From Sphingopyxis sp. BE259 (GTDB lineage: Bacteria > Pseudomonadota > Alphaproteobacteria > Sphingomonadales > Sphingomonadaceae), in contig NZ_JAVDWM010000001.1 in the NCBI RefSeq assembly GCF_031457495.1, positions 1,228,001 to 1,292,000 on the forward strand: a stretch of DNA of 64,000 nucleotides, given 5' to 3'. Shown one piece after another: positions 35,759 through 47,642 of this stretch; position 1 is the stretch's first letter; each line of letters starts with the position of its first letter. The position numbers were made by a program, and so were the translations under genes. The notes under the pieces are model-generated. The model saw only the letters and a program-made list of their open reading frames with translations, searched no databases and was not told where the DNA came from.

Positions 35759-36925
35759 TCAGAGCGGCTTGTCGTAAATCTGATACACCCGGTTGACCTT
35801 GGCATCGATCGCTTCGGCGACCGCGTTCATCCCCTGATTGTCGTCGAGCACCCAGCCGATGTCGCCGCGCTCGGTGCCATAATCCTTGACCGCGTCACGG
35901 CGGATCAGTTCGATCATCATGAAGGCGAGGGTGCTCGCCATGCGGCTGTTCTGCAATTTCTTGGCCACGCCCATCAGCGGCACGCGCAAGGTGCGGCTCT
36001 TTGGCTTGTGCAGCCACCACAGCAAGCGCGCCCAGTTGAACGGGAGTAACGAGCCGTCCATGTCGACCAGCAATTCGTTGATGTTCGGCAGCACGATGGT
36101 GAACGCCACCGCCTCGCCGTCGAGTTCGGCGACGCGGACCAGATCTTCGAACACGATCGTTTTCAGCTTTTTGCCGACAAAGGCGATTTCGCTGTCGGTC
36201 AGCGGGACGAAGCCCCAATTGTCCGACCATGCGTCGTTGAGCAGCCCCATGATCAACGCCGCTTCGGCGTCGAAATTCTTCTTGTCGACCTTGCGGACGC
36301 GGATGCGCGCATTCTTCTCGCCTGCCGCGACGATGCGGTTCACCAGCGGCGAAAAACCCTCTTTGACATACACGTCATAGTTGATCAGCTGCTTGATCGG
36401 TCGATAGCCGGTGGCCTCGATCCAGCCGCGATACAGCGGGCTGTTGTGCCCCATCATCACCGTCGGGCGATTGTCGAACCCTTCGATCAACAAGCCCGGT
36501 TCGTCCCAGACCGAAATCGACAGCGGACCGAGCGACCGGTGCATACCCTGACCGCGCAGCCAATCCTCGGCGGCGGCGAGCAGCGCGCGGGTGGTTTCTT
36601 CGTCTTCGGCTTCGAGCAGGCCCCAATTGCCGGTGCCCGGCCCCATGCCCTGTTGGGCGGGCTGGGCGAGCGCGAGTTCGTCGATATGCGCCGAAATGCG
36701 CCCGACGGTGCGCCCCTTGCGGCGCGCCAGAAACAGCTGCGCCCTGCCATGTTCGAACCACGGATTCTTGCCCGGGGTCAGCAGGTTATAGACCTCGCCC
36801 TTCAGCGGCGGCACCCACGCCGGATCACCGCGGTTGAGCCGAAAGGCGAGCTCGACAAACTCGCGCGTGTCGTTCTTGTCCTTGACGGGATGGATGGTGA
36901 TCGGGCCGTCCGAATGTCCGCTCAT
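35759..36925 (-). CDS. GNAT-fold acyltransferase, candidate bacterial ceramide synthase
   Basis: The 388-residue protein starts MSGHSDGPITIHPVKDKNDT and shows segments typical of large GNAT-like proteins near sphingolipid genes: FVELAFRLNRGDPAWVPPLK, FLARRKGRTVGRISAHID, VWDEPGLLIEGFDNRPTVMM, and DMDGSLLPFNWARLLWW. Bacterial ceramide synthase of Caulobacter is a GNAT-superfamily protein of similar size that acylates the long-chain base. Assignment rests on architecture and location 8-10 kb from serine palmitoyltransferase and is not proven. The ATG at 36925 with AGGAAA upstream is preferred over a TTG seven codons earlier. Confidence 0.6.
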   Translation of the reverse strand: MSGHSDGPITIHPVKDKNDTREFVELAFRLNRGDPAWVPPLKGEVYNLLTPGKNPWFEHGRAQLFLARRKGRTVGRISAHIDELALAQPAQQGMGPGTGNWGLLEAEDEETTRALLAAAEDWLRGQGMHRSLGPLSISVWDEPGLLIEGFDNRPTVMMGHNSPLYRGWIEATGYRPIKQLINYDVYVKEGFSPLVNRIVAAGEKNARIRVRKVDKKNFDAEAALIMGLLNDAWSDNWGFVPLTDSEIAFVGKKLKTIVFEDLVRVAELDGEAVAFTIVLPNINELLVDMDGSLLPFNWARLLWWLHKPKSRTLRVPLMGVAKKLQNSRMASTLAFMMIELIRRDAVKDYGTERGDIGWVLDDNQGMNAVAEAIDAKVNRVYQIYDKPL

Positions 36926-37044
36926 ACTGGTTTCCTGAAATGCCAACCCTATATGTCTGGCGACGCATTAGGGCATCGCCAAGCTGCTGGCGACCCGCAT
37001 TTGGCCATTTTGCTGCCACGAAATGATGATGAAGAGTGCAGGTT

Positions 37045-38151
37045 ATGACGACGATCAACCCCTCTGCCGATCGGGTCGCGACGCCTTTCGCGCCTGCCGC
37101 GGTAAAGACGCCCAAGTCGGCGATTGCCGACGATATGGCGATGATCCGCGCGGCGTCCGAGCTGACGCGCGACCTCGTCACGCCCAGCCCAGGCATCTAT
37201 TGGACCGACTTTCTGGCGTCGGCGTTCATCGGCTACGCCGGCGTCGCGGGCGCGATTTTTGCCCCGAGCACCGCGTGGGCGCTCGCCGCGGCCTTTGTCG
37301 CGATCCTCGCGCTCTATCGCGCCGGCAGCTTCATTCACGAATTGACCCATATCCGCAAAAACGCGCTGCCGGGGTTCCGCTTTGCATGGAATTTGCTCGT
37401 CGGTGTCCCGCTGCTGATCCCGTCCTTCATGTATGAAGGCATCCATAGCCTGCACCACAACCGCACCAAATATGGGACGGTCGACGATCCCGAATATCTG
37501 CCGCTCGCGCTGATGAAGCCGTGGACGGTGCCGCTGTTCGTGGTCGCTGCGGCGTTTGCGCCGCTGGCCCTGTTGTTTCGTTACGCGGTGCTGACCCCGC
37601 TGTCGTTCCTGATCCCGCCGCTGCGCCGGATCGTTGTCGAACGCTATTCGGGGATGATCATCAACCCGTTGTTCCGCCGCAAAGCGCCCGACGGCGCGTT
37701 TCGCCGCATGTGGTCGTGGCAGGAGGGCGGCGCGTGGGCGTGGTCGAGCCTGCTGATCGCCGCGGGCGTCTTCGGCTGGGTGCCGCTGCGCGCGCTGCTG
37801 ATCTTTGGCGCGATTGCCGCGGCGACGCTGGTGCTCAACCAGATCCGTACTTTGGTGGCGCATCTGTGGGAAAATGACGGCGAAGTGCTGACCGTGACCG
37901 GCCAGTTTCTCGACAGCGTCAACGTCCCGCCGCCGGGCTTGCTGCCCGAGCTGTGGGCGCCGGTGGGCTTGCGCTATCATGCGCTGCACCATCTGCTGCC
38001 GGGCGTCCCCTACCACGCGCTCGCCGAGGCGCATCGCCGGTTGAAGGATGTTCTGCCCGCGGATTCGCAATATCATGGCGCGAATTACGACAGCCTGCCG
38101 AAGCTGGTGGCTAATCTGGTTGCGGGTTCGGCGCGGGGCACTTCGGTCTGA
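37045..38151 (+). CDS. Membrane fatty acid desaturase/hydroxylase
   Basis: Three histidine boxes of the membrane di-iron family are present: FIHELTH, GIHSLHHNRTKYG and YHALHHLLPGVPYH, with hydrophobic segments between them. It should act on acyl chains in the membrane as a desaturase or hydroxylase. It is divergent from the ceramide synthase candidate, with about 120 bases between, so a role in modifying the long-chain base or amide-linked acid is plausible. The ATG at 37045 is preferred over a GTG three codons before. Confidence 0.82.
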   Translation: MTTINPSADRVATPFAPAAVKTPKSAIADDMAMIRAASELTRDLVTPSPGIYWTDFLASAFIGYAGVAGAIFAPSTAWALAAAFVAILALYRAGSFIHELTHIRKNALPGFRFAWNLLVGVPLLIPSFMYEGIHSLHHNRTKYGTVDDPEYLPLALMKPWTVPLFVVAAAFAPLALLFRYAVLTPLSFLIPPLRRIVVERYSGMIINPLFRRKAPDGAFRRMWSWQEGGAWAWSSLLIAAGVFGWVPLRALLIFGAIAAATLVLNQIRTLVAHLWENDGEVLTVTGQFLDSVNVPPPGLLPELWAPVGLRYHALHHLLPGVPYHALAEAHRRLKDVLPADSQYHGANYDSLPKLVANLVAGSARGTSV

Positions 38152-38220
38152 CTTCGACGAGAGTTGGATTAATCCGGCAGATGACCGCTTCGGGGTGGGA
38201 AGCGGACAAACCCCACCCCT

Positions 38221-38312
38221 CGTCACCCCGGACTTGATCCGGGGTCCATGACCCGTTGAGCCGCCGTAATCTTGAGAGGGCAGATGGATCCCGGATCAAG
38301 TCCGGGATGACG
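38221..38312. repeat. Intergenic inverted repeat, family C, copy 1
   Basis: Starts CGTCACCCCGGACTTGATCC and ends GGATCAAGTCCGGGATGACG, with about 50 bases between the arms. A second copy is at 60680-60754. It separates the convergent desaturase and lptG genes. Confidence 0.85.
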
Positions 38313-38382
38313 AAATTAAAGGTCCGAAATCGGTCGCTAGCGGTCATTCACCCAAGGGCGAACGAGACGAACCGGATGCGCC

Positions 38383-39480
38383 CTATTCCTCGGTCCTAAT
38401 CAAAATCATCTCACCGATCAGCGCGAACAAGATGAACGGCCCCCACGCCGCCAGAAACGGCGAGTAAGCCCCCAAATCGCCCATCGCGAGCGCGAAATTG
38501 TCGGCGACGAAATAGGCGAAGCCCAGCGCCATGCCAAAGATTGCACGGATGAACAGCTTGCCCGACCGCGCCAGCCCGAACGCCGCGACCGCGCCGAGCA
38601 GCGGCATCAAGATCGCCGACAGCGGCCCCGAAATTTTGTGCCACAGCACGCCCTTCAGCGCATTGACCGGCCGCCCCGCCGCCTCCAGATCGGCGATCGC
38701 CGCCCGGAGTTGCAGGAAGGGCAATTCGTCGCCATCGACTTGCGCCAGCGTGAACTGGTCGGGCCGCACATTGGGCGCGGCGATGATCGTGCCGAGCGGC
38801 TCGACCGTGCCGGAGCGGCGCAGGAAGCGGGTCGCGCCCGACATTTCCCATCCCCCCGCGACCGCGCGCGCGCTGTCGGCCTTGAGCATCGATGACAGCA
38901 CCCCGCCGGTTCGTTCGTAAATGGTGACGCCGCGCAGGACGATCGACGGACCGCCGGTCTCGACCGTCTCCGCATTGATCAGATCGTCGCCGTCGCGCAC
39001 CCAGATGTTGCTGCGCACCCCATTATCGGCGGGCACGCGTTTATACTCGACCTTTTGCCAGGCGCTGAGCGCCGCGGTCGAACGGGTGACGATCCGTTCG
39101 TTGAACGCAAAGCTGATCCCCGCGACGAGCAGCGCGGCCAAGAACAGCGGCGCCAGCACCTGATGCGCCGACATGCCCGACGCCTTCATCGCGACGACTT
39201 CGCTGTTCTGGTTCAGCGTGATCAGCGTCAGGATCGTGCCGAGCAGCACCGAAAAGGGCAGGAAAGTCTCGATAATCTGCGGCAGCCGCATCCCGACATA
39301 GCGCCAAACGTCCGAATCGCTGTTGCCCGCCACCGCCAATATCTTGCCGCTTTCGCCGAGCAGATCGAGCGTTTGCAGGATCAGCACCAGCGCGAACAGG
39401 ATCGAAAAGGATCGGATCAGGAACAGGCGGCCGACATACAGCGCCATCGTGCGCGACGGGAAAAAGTGAAGCTGGTGCAT
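38383..39480 (-). CDS. lptG: LptG-like permease of the Lpt export complex (YjgQ family)
   Basis: LptF and LptG are the membrane subunits of the ABC machine (with LptB) that lifts LPS out of the inner membrane. This 365-residue protein has the family design of six helices around a periplasmic beta-jellyroll: LFLIRSFSILFALVLILQTL, LPQIIETFLPFSVLLGTILT with NSEVVAMKASGMS, then GVLWHKISGPLSAILMPLLG. It starts just after the lptF stop. Most sphingomonads carry glycosphingolipid in place of LPS, so the exported lipid here may not be LPS. Confidence 0.88.
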   Translation of the reverse strand: MHQLHFFPSRTMALYVGRLFLIRSFSILFALVLILQTLDLLGESGKILAVAGNSDSDVWRYVGMRLPQIIETFLPFSVLLGTILTLITLNQNSEVVAMKASGMSAHQVLAPLFLAALLVAGISFAFNERIVTRSTAALSAWQKVEYKRVPADNGVRSNIWVRDGDDLINAETVETGGPSIVLRGVTIYERTGGVLSSMLKADSARAVAGGWEMSGATRFLRRSGTVEPLGTIIAAPNVRPDQFTLAQVDGDELPFLQLRAAIADLEAAGRPVNALKGVLWHKISGPLSAILMPLLGAVAAFGLARSGKLFIRAIFGMALGFAYFVADNFALAMGDLGAYSPFLAAWGPFILFALIGEMILIRTEE

Positions 39481-39481
39481 A

Positions 39482-40702
39482 TCAGGTCAGGCTTTCCACG
39501 CCCCGCGGCTTGCGCTGGAACAATGTCATCAGGCCGCGGATCTTTTGCGCCGCCTTCGCCGCGACCCGTTCGAGCGCGCCGATCGGCTGGCCGCCCGGCA
39601 CATGCGCGACGACATAATACATCCAGATCGCCAGCGCCGCGAACAGCAGGAAGGGCACCCACAGCGCGATCACCGGATCGATCACCCCGCGCGCGCCCAT
39701 ATCCTCGGCATATTGGTTGATCTTGTGCTGGGTCACCAGCAGCACGATCGACAGGAAGACGCCAAGCGACGAGGTCGATCGCTTGGGCGGGATCGCCAGC
39801 GCGATGGCGATCAGCGGGATCAGGAACATCGACAGCACTTCGACGATGCGGAAATGGAAATTGGCGCGCGATTCGAGCCGCGTCTGTTCGGACTGGCTGG
39901 CATCCTTGCCCGCGACGAACAGCTCGGGGATCGTCATTTCGCGGTCAGCGCCGCCGCGCAGCCGGAACGCCTCGATCTTGGGCAGCGGGATCGGCAGGTC
40001 GTGGTTGTCAAAGGTCAGCACCCGCGGCACCGAAAATTTCGGCGATTCGTGGATCAGCACCCCCTGCGACAGCCGCAGGATGATCGTGTTGGGATCGTCG
40101 GTGGCGAGGAACTGGCCGCGCGCCGCAGTCGCCGACACGCGCTGGCCGTCGCGGTTGTCGCCGCGCACGAAAATGCCGCGCAAGCTGCGTCCATCGTCAT
40201 AGCTTTGCTCGATCCGCAGGGTCATGCGGTCGCCCAGATTGGTGAATTCGCCGACCTTGATCGACGCCCCCAGCGCGCCCGAGCGCAGCTCGAATTGCAA
40301 CCCTTCATAGGCGTAGCGCGCGACCGGCTGAATGAAGCCGACGATCGCGAGATTGAGCGCCGCCAGCGCGATCGCAAAGGCAAAGGGCACCCGCATCAAG
40401 CGTCCGAAACTCATGCCCACGCCCTTCAGCACGTCGAGTTCACTGGTCGTGGCAAGTTTGCGAAATGCCAGCAATATCCCCAGCATCAGCCCGATCGGGA
40501 TGCCCAGCGACAGATATTCGGGGATCAGATTGGCGAGCATCCGCCACACGATGCTGACCGGCCCGCCCTCGGTGGCGACGAAGTCGAACAGCCGCAGCAT
40601 TTTTTCGAGCACGAGCAGCATTGCCGACAGCACCAGCGTGCCGACCATGGGAAAGAAGATGAGCCGCGCGATGTAGCGGTCGATGGCAGGCAGCTTATTC
40701 AA
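39482..40702 (-). CDS. lptF: LptF-like permease of the Lpt export complex (YjgP family)
   Basis: The 406-residue partner of LptG has the matching layout: DRYIARLIFFPMVGTLVLSA, PEYLSLGIPIGLMLGILLAF, TTSELDVLKGVGMSFGRLMR, a central periplasmic domain, and the C-terminal helices FHFRIVEVLSMFLIPLIAIA. The start is a TTG at 40702 (MNKLPAID); no better ATG exists upstream of the first helix. It is first in the lptF-lptG pair and divergent from the DUF2141 - lipid kinase operon, so it shares an intergenic region with probable sphingolipid genes. Confidence 0.88.
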   Translation of the reverse strand: MNKLPAIDRYIARLIFFPMVGTLVLSAMLLVLEKMLRLFDFVATEGGPVSIVWRMLANLIPEYLSLGIPIGLMLGILLAFRKLATTSELDVLKGVGMSFGRLMRVPFAFAIALAALNLAIVGFIQPVARYAYEGLQFELRSGALGASIKVGEFTNLGDRMTLRIEQSYDDGRSLRGIFVRGDNRDGQRVSATAARGQFLATDDPNTIILRLSQGVLIHESPKFSVPRVLTFDNHDLPIPLPKIEAFRLRGGADREMTIPELFVAGKDASQSEQTRLESRANFHFRIVEVLSMFLIPLIAIALAIPPKRSTSSLGVFLSIVLLVTQHKINQYAEDMGARGVIDPVIALWVPFLLFAALAIWMYYVVAHVPGGQPIGALERVAAKAAQKIRGLMTLFQRKPRGVESLT

Positions 40703-40835
40703 TCTTTCGTCGCCCCATCACCATGATTTGGCCGCAAATGGTTCCGATATGCCGATGCAAGGGCGACAGGAACCCGTGTCGGCATGTGCTTTTGCGGTTG
40801 CTGGCGTGGCTATAACCTCTGGAGGTATTGAGGTC

Positions 40836-41351
40836 ATGTCGAAAATTTTTCTCGCCGGCATACTCGCCGCTGGCGCTGCCGGAGCGCTGATTGCGCCCGT
40901 CGCGGCGCAGGGTGCGGCACTGGGTCCGGCGGCGGCGCTGTGCAACAGCAATGCGACCGCGGTGCAGGTCGATGTGCGCGGCTTCAAGGCGCGCACCGGC
41001 ACCGTGCGGGTCCAGATTTACAGCGCGACCAGCAGCTATCTGGAAAAGCGCAAATGGATCGAGCGGGTCGATGTGCCCGTGTCGCGCGCTGGCACCATGG
41101 CGATCTGCGTCCCGGTCAAGCAGCCGGGCAATTATGTCGTGTCGGTGCGGCATGACATGAACGGCAATGGAAAGTCGGATCGCAGCGATGGCGCCGGACT
41201 GTCGGGCAATCCCGACATGAAGGTCAGCGACTTCATCTTCAAGCGGAAGCCCAAATTGGCGACGGTCAGCTTTGCGGTCGGCGGCGCCACCCGGCGCGTT
41301 CCCGTGGTGCTGAACTACGTCAACGGCCTGTCGTTCGACCCGGTCGAATAG
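40836..41351 (+). CDS. DUF2141 exported protein, sphingolipid-locus associated
   Basis: A 171-residue protein with a signal peptide ending APVAAQ and a DUF2141 beta-sandwich: VQVDVRGFKARTGTVRVQIY and YVVSVRHDMNGNGKSDRSDG, with an acidic DxNxNGKSD loop that suggests calcium binding. A GGAGGT site lies about nine bases before the ATG at 40836. It is followed closely by a lipid kinase and a nucleotidyltransferase-like gene. To my recollection the same trio occurs in the Caulobacter ceramide phosphoglycerate locus (cpgABC). The periplasmic role is unknown. Confidence 0.75.
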   Translation: MSKIFLAGILAAGAAGALIAPVAAQGAALGPAAALCNSNATAVQVDVRGFKARTGTVRVQIYSATSSYLEKRKWIERVDVPVSRAGTMAICVPVKQPGNYVVSVRHDMNGNGKSDRSDGAGLSGNPDMKVSDFIFKRKPKLATVSFAVGGATRRVPVVLNYVNGLSFDPVE

Positions 41352-41359
41352 GGAGTTTT

Positions 41360-42334
41360 ATGGCCAGCGTCGCGCTTCTTTCCAATCCGCGTTCGACCGG
41401 CAACCGGGCTTTGCTGCCCCGGGTTCGCGAATATTGCGCGGCGCATCCCGACATCTTTCATTATGAGGTCGAGGACGTCGATCAGATCGGCGAGGCGATC
41501 CGCACCATCGCGATGGTCGGCCCGCGCGTCGTGGTCATCAACGGCGGCGACGGCACGGTGCAGGCCGCGCTGACCGAACTCTATTCGGGCGGCCACTTCG
41601 GCGGTTCGCCGCCACCGGTCGCGGTGCTGCCGAACGGCAAGACCAATTTGATCGCGCTCGACCTGGGCGCCGAGGGCGATCCGATCAAGGCGTTGCAGCG
41701 GGTGATCGAGCTGGTCAATTCGGGTCAGCTGGAAGACCATGTGATCCAGCGCCAGCTGATCTCGCTCGACAGCGGCGGCGAAGCACGCCCGGTGCTCGGC
41801 ATGTTCCTGGGCGGCGCCTATCTTGCCGACGTCATGCTGTATTGCCGCAACCGTATCTATCCGCTCGGCCTGCCCAACGGCATCTCGCATTTTCTGGCCG
41901 CAATCCTCGGCCTGTTCGCGATGATGTTCGGTCTCGGCGGCGGGCGCCTGCCGCCCAAGCCCCAGGCGATGACGGTGTCGTTGATCCGGCAGGGCGAATA
42001 TCAGGGCAAATTTTCGCTGCTGATCGTCACGACGCTGGAAAAGCTGCTGCTCAGTATGCGGACCAACGATGCAGCGGGACAGAGCGGGCAGATGAAATTG
42101 CTCGCGGTGGAACGCGGGCTGGGCGCGCTGGTCCGCATGCTCGGGGCCACCTGGCGCGGCACGCTGGGGCAGAATCAGCTCGACGGGGTGCATTTCCAGC
42201 AGGGCGACGAAATCCGCATCGAGGGCGAGCGGTCGAACGTGATTCTGGATGGCGAGATTTTTCAGGCCAAGACCGGCATGCCGATCATTCTCACCTCGAC
42301 GCAGCCGGTTCCCTTCCTGCGCCTTGCCGCCTGA
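41360..42334 (+). CDS. Diacylglycerol-kinase-family lipid kinase, candidate ceramide kinase
   Basis: This 324-residue protein of the DAGK catalytic family starts with SNPRSTGNRALLPRVRE and has VVINGGDGTVQAALTEL, the nucleotide-binding GGDGT motif. The next conserved motif, usually LPxGTxN, reads LPNGKTNLIALDLG, a clear departure. The C-terminal lobe ends RSNVILDGEIF. Its setting between DUF2141 and a nucleotidyltransferase-like gene, with serine palmitoyltransferase 3 kb away, points to ceramide as substrate, as in Caulobacter. The gene lies eight bases after the DUF2141 stop. Confidence 0.72.
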   Translation: MASVALLSNPRSTGNRALLPRVREYCAAHPDIFHYEVEDVDQIGEAIRTIAMVGPRVVVINGGDGTVQAALTELYSGGHFGGSPPPVAVLPNGKTNLIALDLGAEGDPIKALQRVIELVNSGQLEDHVIQRQLISLDSGGEARPVLGMFLGGAYLADVMLYCRNRIYPLGLPNGISHFLAAILGLFAMMFGLGGGRLPPKPQAMTVSLIRQGEYQGKFSLLIVTTLEKLLLSMRTNDAAGQSGQMKLLAVERGLGALVRMLGATWRGTLGQNQLDGVHFQQGDEIRIEGERSNVILDGEIFQAKTGMPIILTSTQPVPFLRLAA

Positions 42335-42341
42335 CCGCATC

Positions 42342-43202
42342 ATGTCGGCGTTGACGGACCTCGTCCGCGAAGAACTGAATACTCCGGTCGATCCGCGCGT
42401 CGCGGCCATGGCGCAGGCGATTGCGGCGCAATATCCTGGCAGCGCGCGCGCGGTGCTGTTTTACGGCAGCTGCCTGCGGATGAGCGAACTCGACGGGTTG
42501 ATGCTCGATTTCTACCTGATTGTGTCGGACTATGGCGACGCTTATCCCAAACGCTGGATGGCCGCCGCCAACCGGCTGATCCCGCCCAATGTGTTTCCGT
42601 TTCAGCACGGCGGGTTGATCGCCAAATATGCGGTGCTCAGCGAGGCCGATTTTCATCGCCTGAACGGCGCCGAGACGCGCAACGTGTCGGTGTGGGCGCG
42701 CTTCGCCCAGCCGTCGCGGCTGGTCTGGGCGGTGGACGACACCGCGCGGCAACGGGCGGTGGCAGCGGTGGCGCGCGCTGCGCCCACCTTGCTGGCCGCG
42801 GCGGGGTCGATTGATGGAGAGGCGCCGCTCGACTGGTGGCGACGGGCGTTTGCGCTGACCTATTCGGTCGAACTGCGCGCCGAACGGACGGGGCGCGCTC
42901 AGTCGGTGGTGGACGCCGATTCCGACCGCTACCAACGCTTCAGCATCCCCGCGATCGCCGCAATCCCGACCGGCGCCCGCGGTGGCGGCTGGGCGCGGCG
43001 GCGCGTCGAGGGCAAGGCGCTCAGCATCGCGCGGCTTGCCAAGGCCAGCCTGACCTATGCCGGCGGCATCGATTATCTGGCGTGGAAGATCAATCGCCAT
43101 GCCGGGACAAAGATCGAGATCAAGCCGTGGCAACGCCGCTGGCCGCTGGTCGCCGCGCTGACGCTGGTGCCGCGGTTGATCAAGGGCGGCGCGATCCGGT
43201 GA
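42342..43202 (+). CDS. Nucleotidyltransferase-like protein of the sphingolipid locus
   Basis: The 286-residue product shows AVLFYGSCLRMSELDGLMLD followed by FYLIVSDYGDAY. This resembles the GS...D-x-D core of the Pol-beta nucleotidyltransferase fold, but the second Asp of the usual pair is not at its expected place. The C-terminal third is basic with a hydrophobic stretch (WPLVAALTLVPRLIKGGAIR) that may touch the membrane. It starts eight bases after the kinase stop, so the three genes form one operon. A head-group-adding step after ceramide phosphorylation is the likely role, by analogy with Caulobacter. Confidence 0.6.
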   Translation: MSALTDLVREELNTPVDPRVAAMAQAIAAQYPGSARAVLFYGSCLRMSELDGLMLDFYLIVSDYGDAYPKRWMAAANRLIPPNVFPFQHGGLIAKYAVLSEADFHRLNGAETRNVSVWARFAQPSRLVWAVDDTARQRAVAAVARAAPTLLAAAGSIDGEAPLDWWRRAFALTYSVELRAERTGRAQSVVDADSDRYQRFSIPAIAAIPTGARGGGWARRRVEGKALSIARLAKASLTYAGGIDYLAWKINRHAGTKIEIKPWQRRWPLVAALTLVPRLIKGGAIR

Positions 43203-43215
43203 GGCCGCTCGCCGC

Positions 43216-45186
43216 CTAACTCGCCAGCCGTTGTGCTTCGCCCGACCGGGCCTCGCCGCGCCGGCGGATCGCCTGATCGAGCGCGTTCAGGGTGAAGGGT
43301 TTGCGCAGCACGTCATGGTCGCCGAAACTTGCGATCTCGCTCGCATCGCCAGAATAGCCGGTGACGAACAGCACCGACAGTTCGGGCCAGCGCCGCTTGA
43401 GTTGGGCGACCAGTTCGGGACCGGTGATTTCGGGCATCAGCACGTCGGACAGGATCAGGTCAAAGCCGCCCCCGTCGGCCAGCCGCCCTTCGACCAGCCG
43501 CTCGGCTTCCAGCGGATTGCCGCATCCGACCGCGCGGTGCCCCAGTTCCTCGACCGCATCGACCGTCGCGGTGAGCACACGCTCATCGTCCTCGACCACC
43601 AGAATGTGCAACATTTCGGTCGGCGCGGCATCGGCCGGGTCGGCGTCGGTGTAGCTCGCGGCGGCAGCGACCTCCTGCGGCTTGGCCACCGGCAACAGCA
43701 TGGCGACGCTGGTGCCTTCGCCTTCGGTCGATGAAATCTGCACCTCGCCGCCCGACTGGCGGCAAAAGGCGAACACCTGGCTCATGCCGAGGCCGGTCCC
43801 CTGACCCGCGGGTTTGGTGGTGTAAAAGGGGTCGAACACGCGTTCGAGCACCTCGGGCGCCATGCCGCACCCGGTGTCGATCACCTGCACCGCCAGCGCT
43901 TTGCCGTCGCCGTCGTCGAGGGTGCGGATGGTCAGCGCGCCATGGCCCTCCATCGCATCGCGCGCGTTGACCGCGAGGTTGAGCAGGGCGTTTTCGAACT
44001 GTTGCCGGTCGAGCCAGCAGGCGAGGCCGTCGGCATCAAGGTCGAGGGTCAGCGCGATCCGGTCGCCGATCGTCCGTTCGATCAGCTCGGCAAAACTGGC
44101 GATGCAGTCGTCGACCGCGGTGATTTCCGGGCGCGCGGGTTCGGAACGGGCAAAGGTCAGCAACCGCCGCGTCAGGTCGGCGGCGCGGTTGGCGCCGTCG
44201 AGCGCGTTGGCGAGGTGGCGTTCGGCCTTTTCCGGCGTATCGGGCAGCCAGCGCTGGGCCAATTCAAGCCCGCCGACAACGACCGCCAGCATATTGTTGA
44301 AATCATGCGCGATGCCGCCGGTCAGCTGGCCGACCGCCTCCATCTTCTGCGCCTGGCGTAGCTGCGCCTCGGCGGCTTCGCGTTCGGTCATCTCGCTGCG
44401 GAGCGCAATATTGGCGCGTTCCAGTTCGGCGGTGCGCGCCTCGACCGCTTCTTCCAGTTGCGCGGCGCGGTCGCTTTCGACGGCCTGTTCGCGCCGTGCG
44501 ACGCGGCGCTCGGCCTCGGCGCGGACGAGCGAAAAAGTGGCGCCGATCGCCACCGCGGCCGCCGCAGCGCCGAGCAGCGAAAACAGCAGGATCGCCTGGT
44601 TCAGGCTGGCGCGGTCGGCGGCGGCGACGCGGTTGCGTTCGCGCAGCAGGGCACGTTCATTGCTGATGATCTGGGTCAGCAACCGATCGATGCGGCCCAG
44701 CGCGGCGTCATGGCCGGCGGCGTGATATTTCGAGATTGCAGCGACGGTCTGGCTGTAGTTGGCGCTGAGCGCGGCGTCGCCGAGTTGGCGTCCGCGGCGA
44801 TCCATCTCTTGCGTCAGATCCTCGACCAGCTTCGATTGCACGTCATTGTCGCGGACGGTACGGTCGAGCCGGGTCAGATATTGCCGCGCCAGCCCCCATT
44901 GCTGTTCATAAACACGGCCGTCCTCCTTTTGCAGCCCGACGGCAAAGCGTCCTAGCGCGGCCTCGGCGCGCGCCAGCGCGGCGTCGAGCGAGCGGGTCTG
45001 CGAAATCACTTCCAGGCTCTGCGTCTGCCAGCCGAGCGAGCGGTCGTAATTGTCGTTGGCACGCGCCAGGAGCAGGACGAGCGCCGTGACCACGCCGGTC
45101 AGCAGCGTCGCCATACCGATCGTCAGCCAGAAGCGTATCCGCTCCCGCCGACCGTCGCTTTCCGTATCGCCATCCCGCTCGAACAC
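43216..45186 (-). CDS. Hybrid sensor histidine kinase
   Basis: This 656-residue protein has two N-terminal membrane helices (about 20-42 and 200-220) flanking a helical periplasmic sensor of CHASE3 type, a coiled coil, a histidine kinase core and a C-terminal receiver. The phospho-acceptor box is [14 protein letters not shown], the ATP-lid G box [10 protein letters not shown], and the receiver Asp lies in [13 protein letters not shown]. No separate response regulator with a DNA-binding domain is adjacent, so output probably passes through an Hpt protein. It is convergent with the lipid kinase operon, 13 bases away. Confidence 0.92.
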
Positions 45187-45313
45187 GCGCCCGTCTTACC
45201 GGACAAGCGCAGCGTCGCAAAGCACCGAAGCCGCCGGTGCTGCGGCGCCGCTTCGGTTCGGCGCAAAAAAGAATCCGCTGGTCGGGGATTGGCCCGGATC
45301 AACCGCTGTCGCT

Positions 45314-46516
45314 TCAGCCGATTATACCGACGCGCTGGCCCGCGCGTTCGAACCGGCCAAGGATTTCGGTGACCTGTTCGCTGCTATGTTCCGCGCACAG
45401 CGAACAGCGCAGCAGCGTCATATTCGCCGGGGTTGCGGGCGGGCGCGCGAGGTTCACGTAAAGCCCTTCCTCCAGCAGCGCTTCCCACATCATCGCGCCG
45501 CGCTCCAGGTCGGGCATGATCACTGCAATGATCGCCGACTGCGGCTCGTCGGTGCCGAGCGTAAAGCCGAGGTCGCGCAACCCCTTATGCAGCGTCTTGG
45601 AATTTTCCCACAGATGGGCGCGCTTGTTCGATCCGTGCATCAGCTTGCGGATGCTCGTCGCCGCCGTCGCGACGACGCTGGGCGGCAGCGACGCGGTGAA
45701 CACATAGGGGCGGCAGACAAGCCGCAGGATTTCGAATTTCGGATGGTTCGATACACAGAAACCGCCGACGGTGCCGACGCTCTTGCTGAACGTGCCGATG
45801 ACGAAATCGACGTCGTCCAGTACGCCCTGTGCCTCGGCGACGCCGCGGCCATGCTCGCCGATGAAGCCCATCGAATGCGCTTCGTCGACCAGCACCATCG
45901 CGCCATTTTCCTTGGAAACGCGGATCATCTCCTTCAGCGGCGCGATGTCGCCCAGCATCGAATAGACGCCTTCGAGGACGACGAGCTTGCCCGCTTCGGG
46001 CGGCAGGCGCTTCAGCCGTTTTTCCAGCGCTTCGACGTCATTGTGGCGGAACGCGACGATTTCGGCATTGCCCATCGCGCACCCGTCATAGATCGACGCA
46101 TGGCTGTCGATGTCGAGGATGACATAGTCGCCCTTGCCCGCGATCGTGCTGATGATGCCGAGGTTCGCCTGGTAACCGGTTGAAAACACCATGGCATGAT
46201 CCATGGCGTAAAATTCTTTCAGCGCCTCTTCGCACTCCTTGTGGCCCTGATAGGTGCCATTGAGGACGCGGCTGCCGGTCGTCCCGGCGCCGAATTTGTC
46301 GAGCGCGTCCTTGCCCGCTGCGATGACATCCTCGTCGAACGTCATGCCCATATAATTGTAGGTGCCGAGCAGGATCGTCTCGCGGCCGTTGCAGATCGCG
46401 ACGGTCGGCGACACGACGCGCTCCATCACGAGGCTGAACGGATCGGTGACCCCGGTCGCGAGGAGGTCTTCGCGCTGCTGGATCAGCGGATCGAATTTCG
46501 AAAAGAGGTCGGTCAT
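45314..46516 (-). CDS. spt: Serine palmitoyltransferase
   Basis: SPT condenses serine with an acyl thioester to 3-ketosphinganine, the first step in sphingolipid synthesis. The 400-residue protein shows NYMGMTFDE, GAGTTGSRVLNGTYQGHKEC, VDEAHSMGFIGEHGRG and the PLP-lysine segment GTFSKSVGTVGGFCVSN, closely resembling the soluble Sphingomonas enzyme. It is slightly shorter at the N-terminus than that enzyme. The gene follows an ACP gene on the same strand, separated by a family A repeat. Other alpha-oxoamine synthases (KBL, BioF, HemA) are less likely given the ACP neighbour. Confidence 0.93.
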   Translation of the reverse strand: MTDLFSKFDPLIQQREDLLATGVTDPFSLVMERVVSPTVAICNGRETILLGTYNYMGMTFDEDVIAAGKDALDKFGAGTTGSRVLNGTYQGHKECEEALKEFYAMDHAMVFSTGYQANLGIISTIAGKGDYVILDIDSHASIYDGCAMGNAEIVAFRHNDVEALEKRLKRLPPEAGKLVVLEGVYSMLGDIAPLKEMIRVSKENGAMVLVDEAHSMGFIGEHGRGVAEAQGVLDDVDFVIGTFSKSVGTVGGFCVSNHPKFEILRLVCRPYVFTASLPPSVVATAATSIRKLMHGSNKRAHLWENSKTLHKGLRDLGFTLGTDEPQSAIIAVIMPDLERGAMMWEALLEEGLYVNLARPPATPANMTLLRCSLCAEHSSEQVTEILGRFERAGQRVGIIG

Positions 46517-46534
46517 GTCTGGATCCTAAAACAT

Positions 46535-46658
46535 CCGTTTGCCCTGAGGAGCCATTGAGTGCTGAGCTTGTCGAAGCATCGAAATGGCATCTCGAAGGGC
46601 CGCAGGAGTGCTTCGAGACGGGTCTTCGCTTCGCTTAGCCCGTCTTCAGCACGAATGG
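46535..46658. repeat. Intergenic inverted repeat, family A, copy 3 (degenerate)
   Basis: Starts CCGTTTGCCCTGAGGAGCCA; the centre has CTCGAAGGGCC and GCTTCGAGACGGGTC, and the right arm (GTCTTCAGCACGAATGGG) is diverged. It lies between the ACP and serine palmitoyltransferase genes and may affect read-through. Confidence 0.65.
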
Positions 46659-46668
46659 GCAGAAGGGG

Positions 46669-46905
46669 TCAGCCCTGCAATTTCTCAACCGCGGCGACCA
46701 ACTGGCCCACGGTTTCGATTTCGGCCTGCATGTTCATGCTGATGATGATGTCGAACGTGTCTTCGACTTCGGCGACGAAATCCATCACCGTCAGGCTGTC
46801 CCACTCAAGATCGCCCGCAAAGGTCGTCGCGTCGGTCAGCGCGACGCCCTTTTTGTTGAACGGGCCGATCAGGCCGTGAATCTGGTCGGTGAGGGCGGTG
46901 CTCAT
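46669..46905 (-). CDS. Acyl carrier protein of the sphingolipid pathway
   Basis: A 78-residue ACP with the phosphopantetheine attachment serine in EWDSLTVMDFVAEVE. It differs from the fatty-acid ACP in its N-terminal NKKGVALTDATTF segment. Specialised ACPs lie next to serine palmitoyltransferase in sphingolipid-making bacteria and are thought to supply the acyl thioester. It is the first gene of the ACP-SPT pair and is divergent from a membrane protein gene. Confidence 0.88.
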   Translation of the reverse strand: MSTALTDQIHGLIGPFNKKGVALTDATTFAGDLEWDSLTVMDFVAEVEDTFDIIISMNMQAEIETVGQLVAAVEKLQG

Positions 46906-47069
46906 CGGGTGCGTCCCTTAATGGAAGAATGTTGCGCGCGGGAATGCCGCGCTCCTGTCTGATTGGCAAGCGATTGCGGCGGGAACAGGGCAGCATCTTG
47001 CCGCCCCCGGCACTTCATGGCATCGCTGTGACGGGTCGCTGGCGCATTGCGAAGGCAGGGGAACAAGCC

Positions 47070-47642
47070 ATGGACAGCGAAAACGCATCGACACCAGCGG
47101 CGCGGCCGGCGGTCTCTTTCCCGCCGAACGCAGTCCACCTCGTCCGCACCAACCAGCAACTGACGATGCAATTGTCGCAGATGGCGGATCAAAAGGCATC
47201 GATCCTGATGGGCGCGACCTTCGTCGTCTTCACGCTCGCGGTGGGGCAGGCGCGCGCGGGGGCAGGGGCGCTGGCGATGCCGCTGACTATTTTGGCGACC
47301 TTTTCCTTCCTGTCGGCGCTACTCGCCGTATCGGCGGTGCTGCCGCGCGTCGGCAAGGCGCCCCCGATCGTTTACAAGGACGGCAAGGACCACAGCAACA
47401 TCCTGTTTTTCGGCCGCTTCGCGCAGATGGAGGAGGATGAATTCATCGACGCGGTGAAAGCGCGGCTGCGGACCGAGGACGATCTTTACGAGACGATGCT
47501 GCGCGATACGTATCAGAACGGCATTGTGCTGGCGCGGCGCAAATATCGGTATCTGGCCTATGCGTACCGGTTGTTCGTCGTCGGGCTGACGCTGACCTTC
47601 GGCGCGTTCGCGTTCGAGATGGTGGCGATGTGGCGGGGGTAG
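47070..47642 (+). CDS. Membrane protein resembling Pycsar effectors (PycTM-like)
   Basis: The 190-residue product has the pattern of the family annotated as Pycsar effector: LVRTNQQLTMQLSQMADQKA then SILMGATFVVFTLAVGQ, a second helix (TILATFSFLSALLAVSAVLP), a cytosolic segment and a final helix (LFVVGLTLTFGAFAFEMVAM). In Pycsar defence such proteins disrupt the membrane on sensing cyclic pyrimidine nucleotides made by a partner cyclase. No cyclase gene is adjacent, so a housekeeping role is just as possible. The ATG at 47070 has AGGGGAA upstream; an earlier opening adds 47 unconserved residues. Confidence 0.6.
   Translation: MDSENASTPAARPAVSFPPNAVHLVRTNQQLTMQLSQMADQKASILMGATFVVFTLAVGQARAGAGALAMPLTILATFSFLSALLAVSAVLPRVGKAPPIVYKDGKDHSNILFFGRFAQMEEDEFIDAVKARLRTEDDLYETMLRDTYQNGIVLARRKYRYLAYAYRLFVVGLTLTFGAFAFEMVAMWRG

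Follow-up and report, generated by a model that had tools for sequence, protein, structure and literature searches.

The closest described relative of the locus examined here is the phosphosphingolipid locus of Caulobacter crescentus, which spans CC_1152-CC_1168 and encodes CpgA-D (PMC11324152). That study, from 2024, proposes that LptC2, LptF2 and LptG2 move phosphosphingolipids in Caulobacter, reports cofitness of lptF2 (CC_1156; 0.60) and lptC2 (CC_1168; 0.78) mutants with CC_1159, on which CPG2 depends, gives orthologues from S. wittichii and Z. mobilis for the phosphosphingolipid genes, and states that the route of sphingolipids to the outer membrane is unknown (PMC11324152). Lipopolysaccharide (LPS) is absent from Sphingomonas (PMC2635482), which makes glycosphingolipids instead (PMC12234433), and how LPS-free sphingomonads construct their outer leaflet is an old question. 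Here we analyze a comparable locus at positions 35759-46905 of a 64,000-nucleotide stretch (the window) of Sphingopyxis sp. BE259, whose genome is a single contig of 3.67 Mb. Judging from sequence comparisons, the LptF and LptG encoded there probably form the inner-membrane part of an Lpt machine whose cargo is anionic sphingolipid and which would have taken over, on more than one occasion, where LPS was lost.

The interval is filled by cerS, a desaturase gene, lptG-lptF, a DUF2141 gene, cpgB-like and cpgC-like genes, a hybrid histidine kinase gene, spt and acpR. By published gene numbers the Caulobacter locus shares cerS, lptG2, lptF2, cpgB, cpgC, spt and acpR in the same relative order (PMC11324152), a likeness of gene families, layout and numbering in which the sequences themselves were not compared. 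Unlike its Caulobacter counterpart, the window locus is without genes of the CpgA, CC_1153, CC_1152 and CC_1158 types, and it has the DUF2141 and hybrid histidine kinase genes. In addition, Caulobacter has LPS and another LptFG, whereas BE259 is without LpxC and LpxK and the window pair is its only LptFG. The genes listed in the initial annotation were all recovered with small coordinate fixes, and a CHASE3 hybrid histidine kinase gene at 43216-45186 (-) was added. Its comparison of three of them with the ceramide phosphoglycerate genes of Caulobacter (CpgA-CpgB-CpgC) holds for gene families and layout; it fails at the first position, where DUF2141 takes the place of CpgA. From the locus alone, therefore, at most ceramide phosphoglycerate is predicted. 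Genes of the CpgA, CC_1153 and CpgD types, which would point to the second phosphoglycerate (CPG2), are not in the window locus, the genome beyond it not having been searched for them.

BE259 appears not to make LPS. A complete lpx pathway, regarded beforehand as incompatible with the proposed role of the locus, was not found: LpxC and LpxK are missing from the genome (LpxA, LpxB and LpxD were not searched). The same holds for LpxC (PF03331) throughout the order, with no match in 147 Sphingomonadales genomes from 52 genera, BE259 included, while both controls, Escherichia coli and Caulobacter, matched. LptD (PF04453) is nevertheless present in all 147, and LptF/LptG (PF03739) in 145, with two copies in 130 and three to five matches in 15, the positions of the extra copies not being located. 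BE259 itself encodes exactly one LptF and one LptG, and a search for further copies, as had been suggested, returned only the window pair: lptG (38383-39480, -; TIGR04408, 305.5 bits, cut-off 240) and lptF (39482-40702, -; TIGR04407, 265.3 bits, cut-off 230), both assigned to the sphingolipid-locus type by tree position. LptD, LptA and LptC are encoded outside the locus; LptA lies above the Pfam cut-off and below the NCBI one (59.9 under 71.7), and LptC scores 26.5 over a Pfam cut-off of 21, but 26 under an NCBI cut-off of 38. Compared with the LPS transport machine (LptB2FGC-A-DE), BE259 thus shares LptF and LptG above curated cut-offs together with LptA, LptC and LptD, and differs in the missing LpxC and LpxK and in an LptFG that falls in a separate clade. 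In this LpxC-lacking genome lptC-lptA are followed by an MsbA-like ABC exporter (L258:4951-8349; G000:C1 near 3.59 Mb), which scores below the MsbA cut-off and is a candidate sphingolipid flippase.

One might regard LptFG and LptD in such genomes as relics that now serve some other purpose (an unidentified lipid or envelope glycopolymer, or outer-membrane quality), their linkage to sphingolipid genes being historical. Genes could indeed persist for an unrelated reason, but near-universal retention over 52 genera and a one-pair/two-pair pattern that tracks LPS and sphingolipid genes (see below) make this explanation unlikely.

An Lpt machine turned to sphingolipids is favored by the phylogeny of LptFG. 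A concatenated tree of 63 pairs separates 35 sphingolipid-type from 28 LPS-type pairs with a bootstrap of 100 on a branch of 1.33; the window pair and 16 further sphingomonad pairs fall in the sphingolipid-type group (no entry of the tree carries the name Caulobacter). Constraining the sphingomonad pairs to join the LPS type lowers the log-likelihood by 75 units and is rejected by the approximately unbiased test (p 0.002 with 20000 replicates; p 0.001 in an earlier run with 5000). When 127 domains of LptF and LptG are placed in one joint tree, the sphingolipid-locus copies of each paralogue group together with support of 0.997 (LptF) and 0.977 (LptG), and LPS-type LptG with 0.996. All seven genomes with two pairs carry one of each type. 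The types also differ in residues: LptF positions 31-35 are mostly W-L-T/S-Q-S in the LPS type and mostly L-L-E-R/K-M in the sphingolipid type (V-L-E-K-M in the window), and LptG 45-46 are R-R in the former and mostly D/G and D in the latter (G-K in the window).

The two types follow the distribution of LPS and sphingolipid genes across the class. In 153 genomes drawn evenly from Alphaproteobacteria, serine palmitoyltransferase (SPT; NF047603, E <=1e-110, lowest accepted match 440 bits) was called in 25, 22 of them outside Sphingomonadales. The SPT control gave a match in E. coli too, though one under the family cut-off, which the three sphingomonads alone exceeded; an adjacent acyl carrier protein (ACP) gene therefore matters as a check on the calls, and one adjoins spt in all 22 loci outside Sphingomonadales. 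LpxC, searched with the same model as above, is present in 129 of the 153 genomes, the LpxC-negative status of G268, G282, G288 and G290 following by elimination. It is missing from 17 of 25 SPT-positive and 7 of 128 SPT-negative genomes (Fisher p 1.6e-11) and, with Sphingomonadales left out, from 14 of 22 SPT-positive ones (p 1.4e-9), values that overstate independence because the sampled genomes are related. LpxK agrees, being found in none of the 17 SPT-positive genomes without LpxC and in all eight with it. Among the seven SPT-negative genomes lacking LpxC, four have LpxK, so that the LpxC gap there is probably technical.

The number of LptFG copies changes with these genes. SPT-positive genomes that keep LpxC have four or more LptF/G matches in seven of eight cases, and the same proportion carries one pair of each type; the eighth (G202) has two matches. 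Four matches were also seen in G160, which has LpxC and no SPT. Where LpxC is missing, 16 of 17 SPT-positive genomes have two matches, that is one pair, of the sphingolipid type in every case, and in the remaining genome (G193) no LptFG match was found. Later placements agree with this division: G203 and G290, both SPT-positive and LpxC-negative with lptFG not beside spt, joined the sphingolipid group, and the SPT-negative genomes G187, G190, G246, G164 and G295 joined the LPS group, in some cases weakly supported. Altogether, sphingolipid-type LptFG occurs in 23 of 25 SPT-positive genomes and in none of the 25 SPT-negative genomes typed (20 references from the listed LpxC-positive, SPT-negative genomes plus the five placed later). 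The families f25 and f74 each include one LpxC-positive, SPT-negative genome and one LpxC-negative, SPT-positive genome; taken with Sphingomonadales, this suggests at least three separate losses of LPS, if these families are natural groups. In several LpxC-positive genomes (L067, L063, L135, L151) LptF and LptG share a single open frame, some 760-795 residues long, perhaps as natural fusions.

Gene linkage points in the same direction. The layout cerS - lptG - lptF / (DUF2141) - cpgB - cpgC / spt - acpR recurs in families of Sphingomonadales and, with some rearrangements, in LpxC-negative genomes of other orders, and spt, acpR and cerS occur together in the window and in related loci. None of cerS, cpgB, cpgC, spt, acpR and DUF2141 was found in 20 of 20 LPS-type lptFG reference stretches, which are shorter (7-10 kb). 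The arrangement is more than chance, since it recurs across families and outside the order and is absent from all LPS-type stretches. Measured between their starts, cpgC and lptFG are 2.5-4.3 kb apart in 57 of the 94 Sphingomonadales genomes for which both positions are listed. In the named collection (the best 80 CpgC loci among the matches listed, some on short stretches) lptF is also present in 73 loci, cerS in 64, DUF2141 in 47 and a desaturase/hydroxylase-like gene in 19. Phylogeny, copy number and linkage together tie this LptFG type to sphingolipids, as the initial annotation had supposed.

Linkage also bears on the nature of the cargo. The bridge may instead carry mainly glycosphingolipid (glucuronosyl- or oligosaccharide-ceramide), known to substitute for LPS in sphingomonads, with the phosphoceramide genes a linked but separate pathway. 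Sphingomonas makes glycosphingolipids in place of LPS (PMC12234433), which is absent from it (PMC2635482), LptFG and LptD are kept in Sphingomonadales genomes without a detected CpgC, and the lptFG loci of two such genomes, G030 and G078, hold neither cpgB nor cpgC. On the other hand, each of the 20 sphingolipid-type pairs examined outside Sphingomonadales (15 located by way of spt and 5 by way of lptFG) shares a stretch of at most 20 kb with cpgB and/or cpgC, and G193 and G202, which have no such pair, showed no cpgBC in the stretches read, the rest of these genomes not having been searched. We consider a mainly glycosphingolipid cargo a real though less probable possibility; because both lipids are anionic and one machine could carry both, it is partly the same answer as the Lpt machine for anionic sphingolipids that we prefer.

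According to the preferred reading, SPT, AcpR and CerS of the locus would make ceramide together with steps encoded elsewhere, and CpgB would phosphorylate it. CpgC would then use cytidine triphosphate (CTP) to form cytidine diphosphate (CDP)-ceramide, which could lead to an anionic ceramide phospholipid, e.g. ceramide phosphoglycerate. LptF-LptG would form a bridge with LptA, LptC and LptD from elsewhere in the genome, its cargo presumably an anionic sphingolipid and no longer LPS. The sphingolipid type of LptFG would have an early origin in Alphaproteobacteria, where species having LPS together with phosphosphingolipid genes carry both pairs; after LPS synthesis was lost, the pair of the LPS type would have disappeared and the sphingolipid-type pair would have been kept. 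Gene content and order, the missing LpxC and LpxK, LptA, LptC and LptD, tree position and co-occurrence are what the sequences themselves document here.

The enzymes at the center of this scheme are the products of cpgB (41360-42334, +) and cpgC (42342-43202, +), assigned beside spt, acpR and cerS by family, motif and position, the Caulobacter proteins themselves not having been aligned. The predicted ceramide kinase matches DAGK_cat (PF00781, 1.2e-13) with a GGDG motif at residue 62. As this general family is its only Pfam match, a diacylglycerol kinase in a locus that recycles phospholipids, instead of making phosphoceramide, would also fit. Such a role is very improbable: six NCBI lipid-kinase families, whose cut-offs range from 118 to 400, give the protein at most 31 bits, its gene is grouped with cpgC and spt, and the Caulobacter gene in this position has been proven to encode a ceramide kinase (PMC10331486). 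For CpgC, a start at 42342 rather than 42249 is preferred because the listed database relatives share a form of 286-287 residues (286 in the window); the named near relatives among the matches listed are mostly Sphingopyxis. The protein has no Pfam match above cut-off. A structure model predicts a fold like that of the CDP-diacylglycerol synthase Tam41, a likeness not detected by sequence, and CDP-ceramide is therefore a likely product of what would be a CTP:ceramide-1-phosphate cytidylyltransferase. The two enzymes would differ in substrate, phosphatidate for Tam41 and ceramide 1-phosphate, as predicted, for CpgC.

Several points weigh against a dedicated sphingolipid Lpt machine, besides the relatedness of the sampled genomes. 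Our data show co-inheritance, not transport. LptB was not among the open reading frames scanned beside lptA-lptC, and the genome was not searched for it. Support for LPS-type LptF as a group is only 0.419 in the joint tree, and the typing covered 25 of the 128 SPT-negative genomes. The residue shifts prove no change of cargo, because old paralogues differ at many sites, and the site matching enterobacterial LptG K34 is mostly D in both types, the window having K at 46; K34, K40 and K41 of E. coli LptG were reportedly studied by Bertani et al. 2018. CpgC was not found in 45 of 147 Sphingomonadales genomes by a single-sequence search (102 found), and lptFG and LptD are nearly always kept there, so that the cargo in these species would be another lipid, e.g. 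a glycosphingolipid. Where both positions are listed, cpgC lies away from lptFG in 37 of 94 genomes. G202 has SPT, LpxC and an LPS-type pair only. Finally, G193 has SPT and gave no match to LpxC, LpxK, LptFG or LptA/LptD-N, and sphingolipids therefore do not always need Lpt.

A broader statement is favored only slightly: that Alphaproteobacteria have two ancient, parallel Lpt lines, which export LPS and anionic sphingolipids respectively, that LPS could be dropped only as the sphingolipid line already existed, several times (Sphingomonadales, Dongia, Aquibaculum and others), and that Lpt would export anionic lipids of the outer leaflet in general instead of being an LPS machine, with CpgC acting as a CDP-ceramide synthase. 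If the preferred reading is right, Lpt gains a second natural class of cargo, LPS loss follows a simple genetic rule, and antibiotics directed at Lpt might also be active against LPS-free species, or these might escape them. Dongia mobilis (G267; DNA identity 100% over 17.0 kb) and Aquibaculum arenosum (G261; 100% over 19.8 kb) would then be predicted to be without LPS and to have sphingolipids, in contrast to the apparent restriction of sphingolipids among Alphaproteobacteria to Sphingomonadales (PMC7179689). The Dongia mobilis locus (L170) holds CDP-alcohol transferase, NTP transferase and phosphoesterase genes and the gene classes named for CC_1153, CC_1158, CC_1159, cerR and aasR, and thus matches the Caulobacter composition given in PMC11324152.

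The phosphosphingolipid genes of sphingomonads and a possible Lpt2 export in Caulobacter are already published (PMC11324152); the initial annotation is supported in part, by the likeness to the Caulobacter locus, the missing LpxC and LpxK and the LptFG type. New here are the LpxC, LptD and LptFG counts, the single window pair, the two LptFG types, the pattern linking SPT, LpxC and LptFG, and the Tam41-fold prediction for CpgC. A literature search at the level of titles and abstracts, covering few subscription papers, found no report of the LPS-loss rule or of two LptFG types, and PMC11324152 was its sole match for LptF, LptG and ceramide together.

The remaining genes of the locus complete the picture. 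The cerS-like N-acyltransferase (35759-36946, -; bacterial ceramide synthase type, GNAT-like) has no Pfam match of its own above cut-off in our scan, and its Dongia family member matches GNAT PF00583. A fatty acid desaturase/hydroxylase-like gene follows (37036-38151, +; PF00487, 9.1e-29). The DUF2141 protein (40836-41351, +; PF09912) most likely starts at 40836, where the sequence reads as a hydrophobic, signal-peptide-like start; its predicted model is a beta-sandwich for which fold comparison gave no clear relative. At the other end lie spt (45314-46516, -; NF047603, 811.4 bits, cut-off 670) and acpR for a dedicated ACP (46669-46905, -; PF00550). The CHASE3 hybrid histidine kinase, recognized by Pfam, has 15 matches in the 80 named-collection loci and none in 40 further stretches; its gene stands directly after cpgC in the matches listed, adjoins cpgC in many sphingomonads, and encodes a candidate regulator of the outer lipid.

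Variants of the locus were seen elsewhere. In G126 (L266) cpgB-cpgC lie apart from lptFG, together with DUF2141 matches. G193 (L095, L269), an alphaproteobacterial genome on a single contig, has SPT, CerS and ACP; cpgBC were not seen in either of the two adjoining stretches that were read, and the genome raises the question of an outer membrane that lacks LPS and Lpt alike. The set cerS-lptF-lptG-cpgB-cpgC also occurs in the Nitrospirales bins NPIRA01 and NPIRA04 (L179, L180), with similar sets in some bins of Burkholderiales and Nevskia; unless these are misbinned, the locus has spread beyond Alphaproteobacteria. Next to the window locus, divergent from acpR, a gene at 46929-47642 (+) encodes a PycTM protein (Pycsar effector, PF18967), and no cyclase was recognized among the flanking genes scanned. 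PycTM-like proteins occur in nine other sphingomonad sphingolipid loci, and it may for this reason be a membrane protein of the lipid locus rather than a phage defence component.

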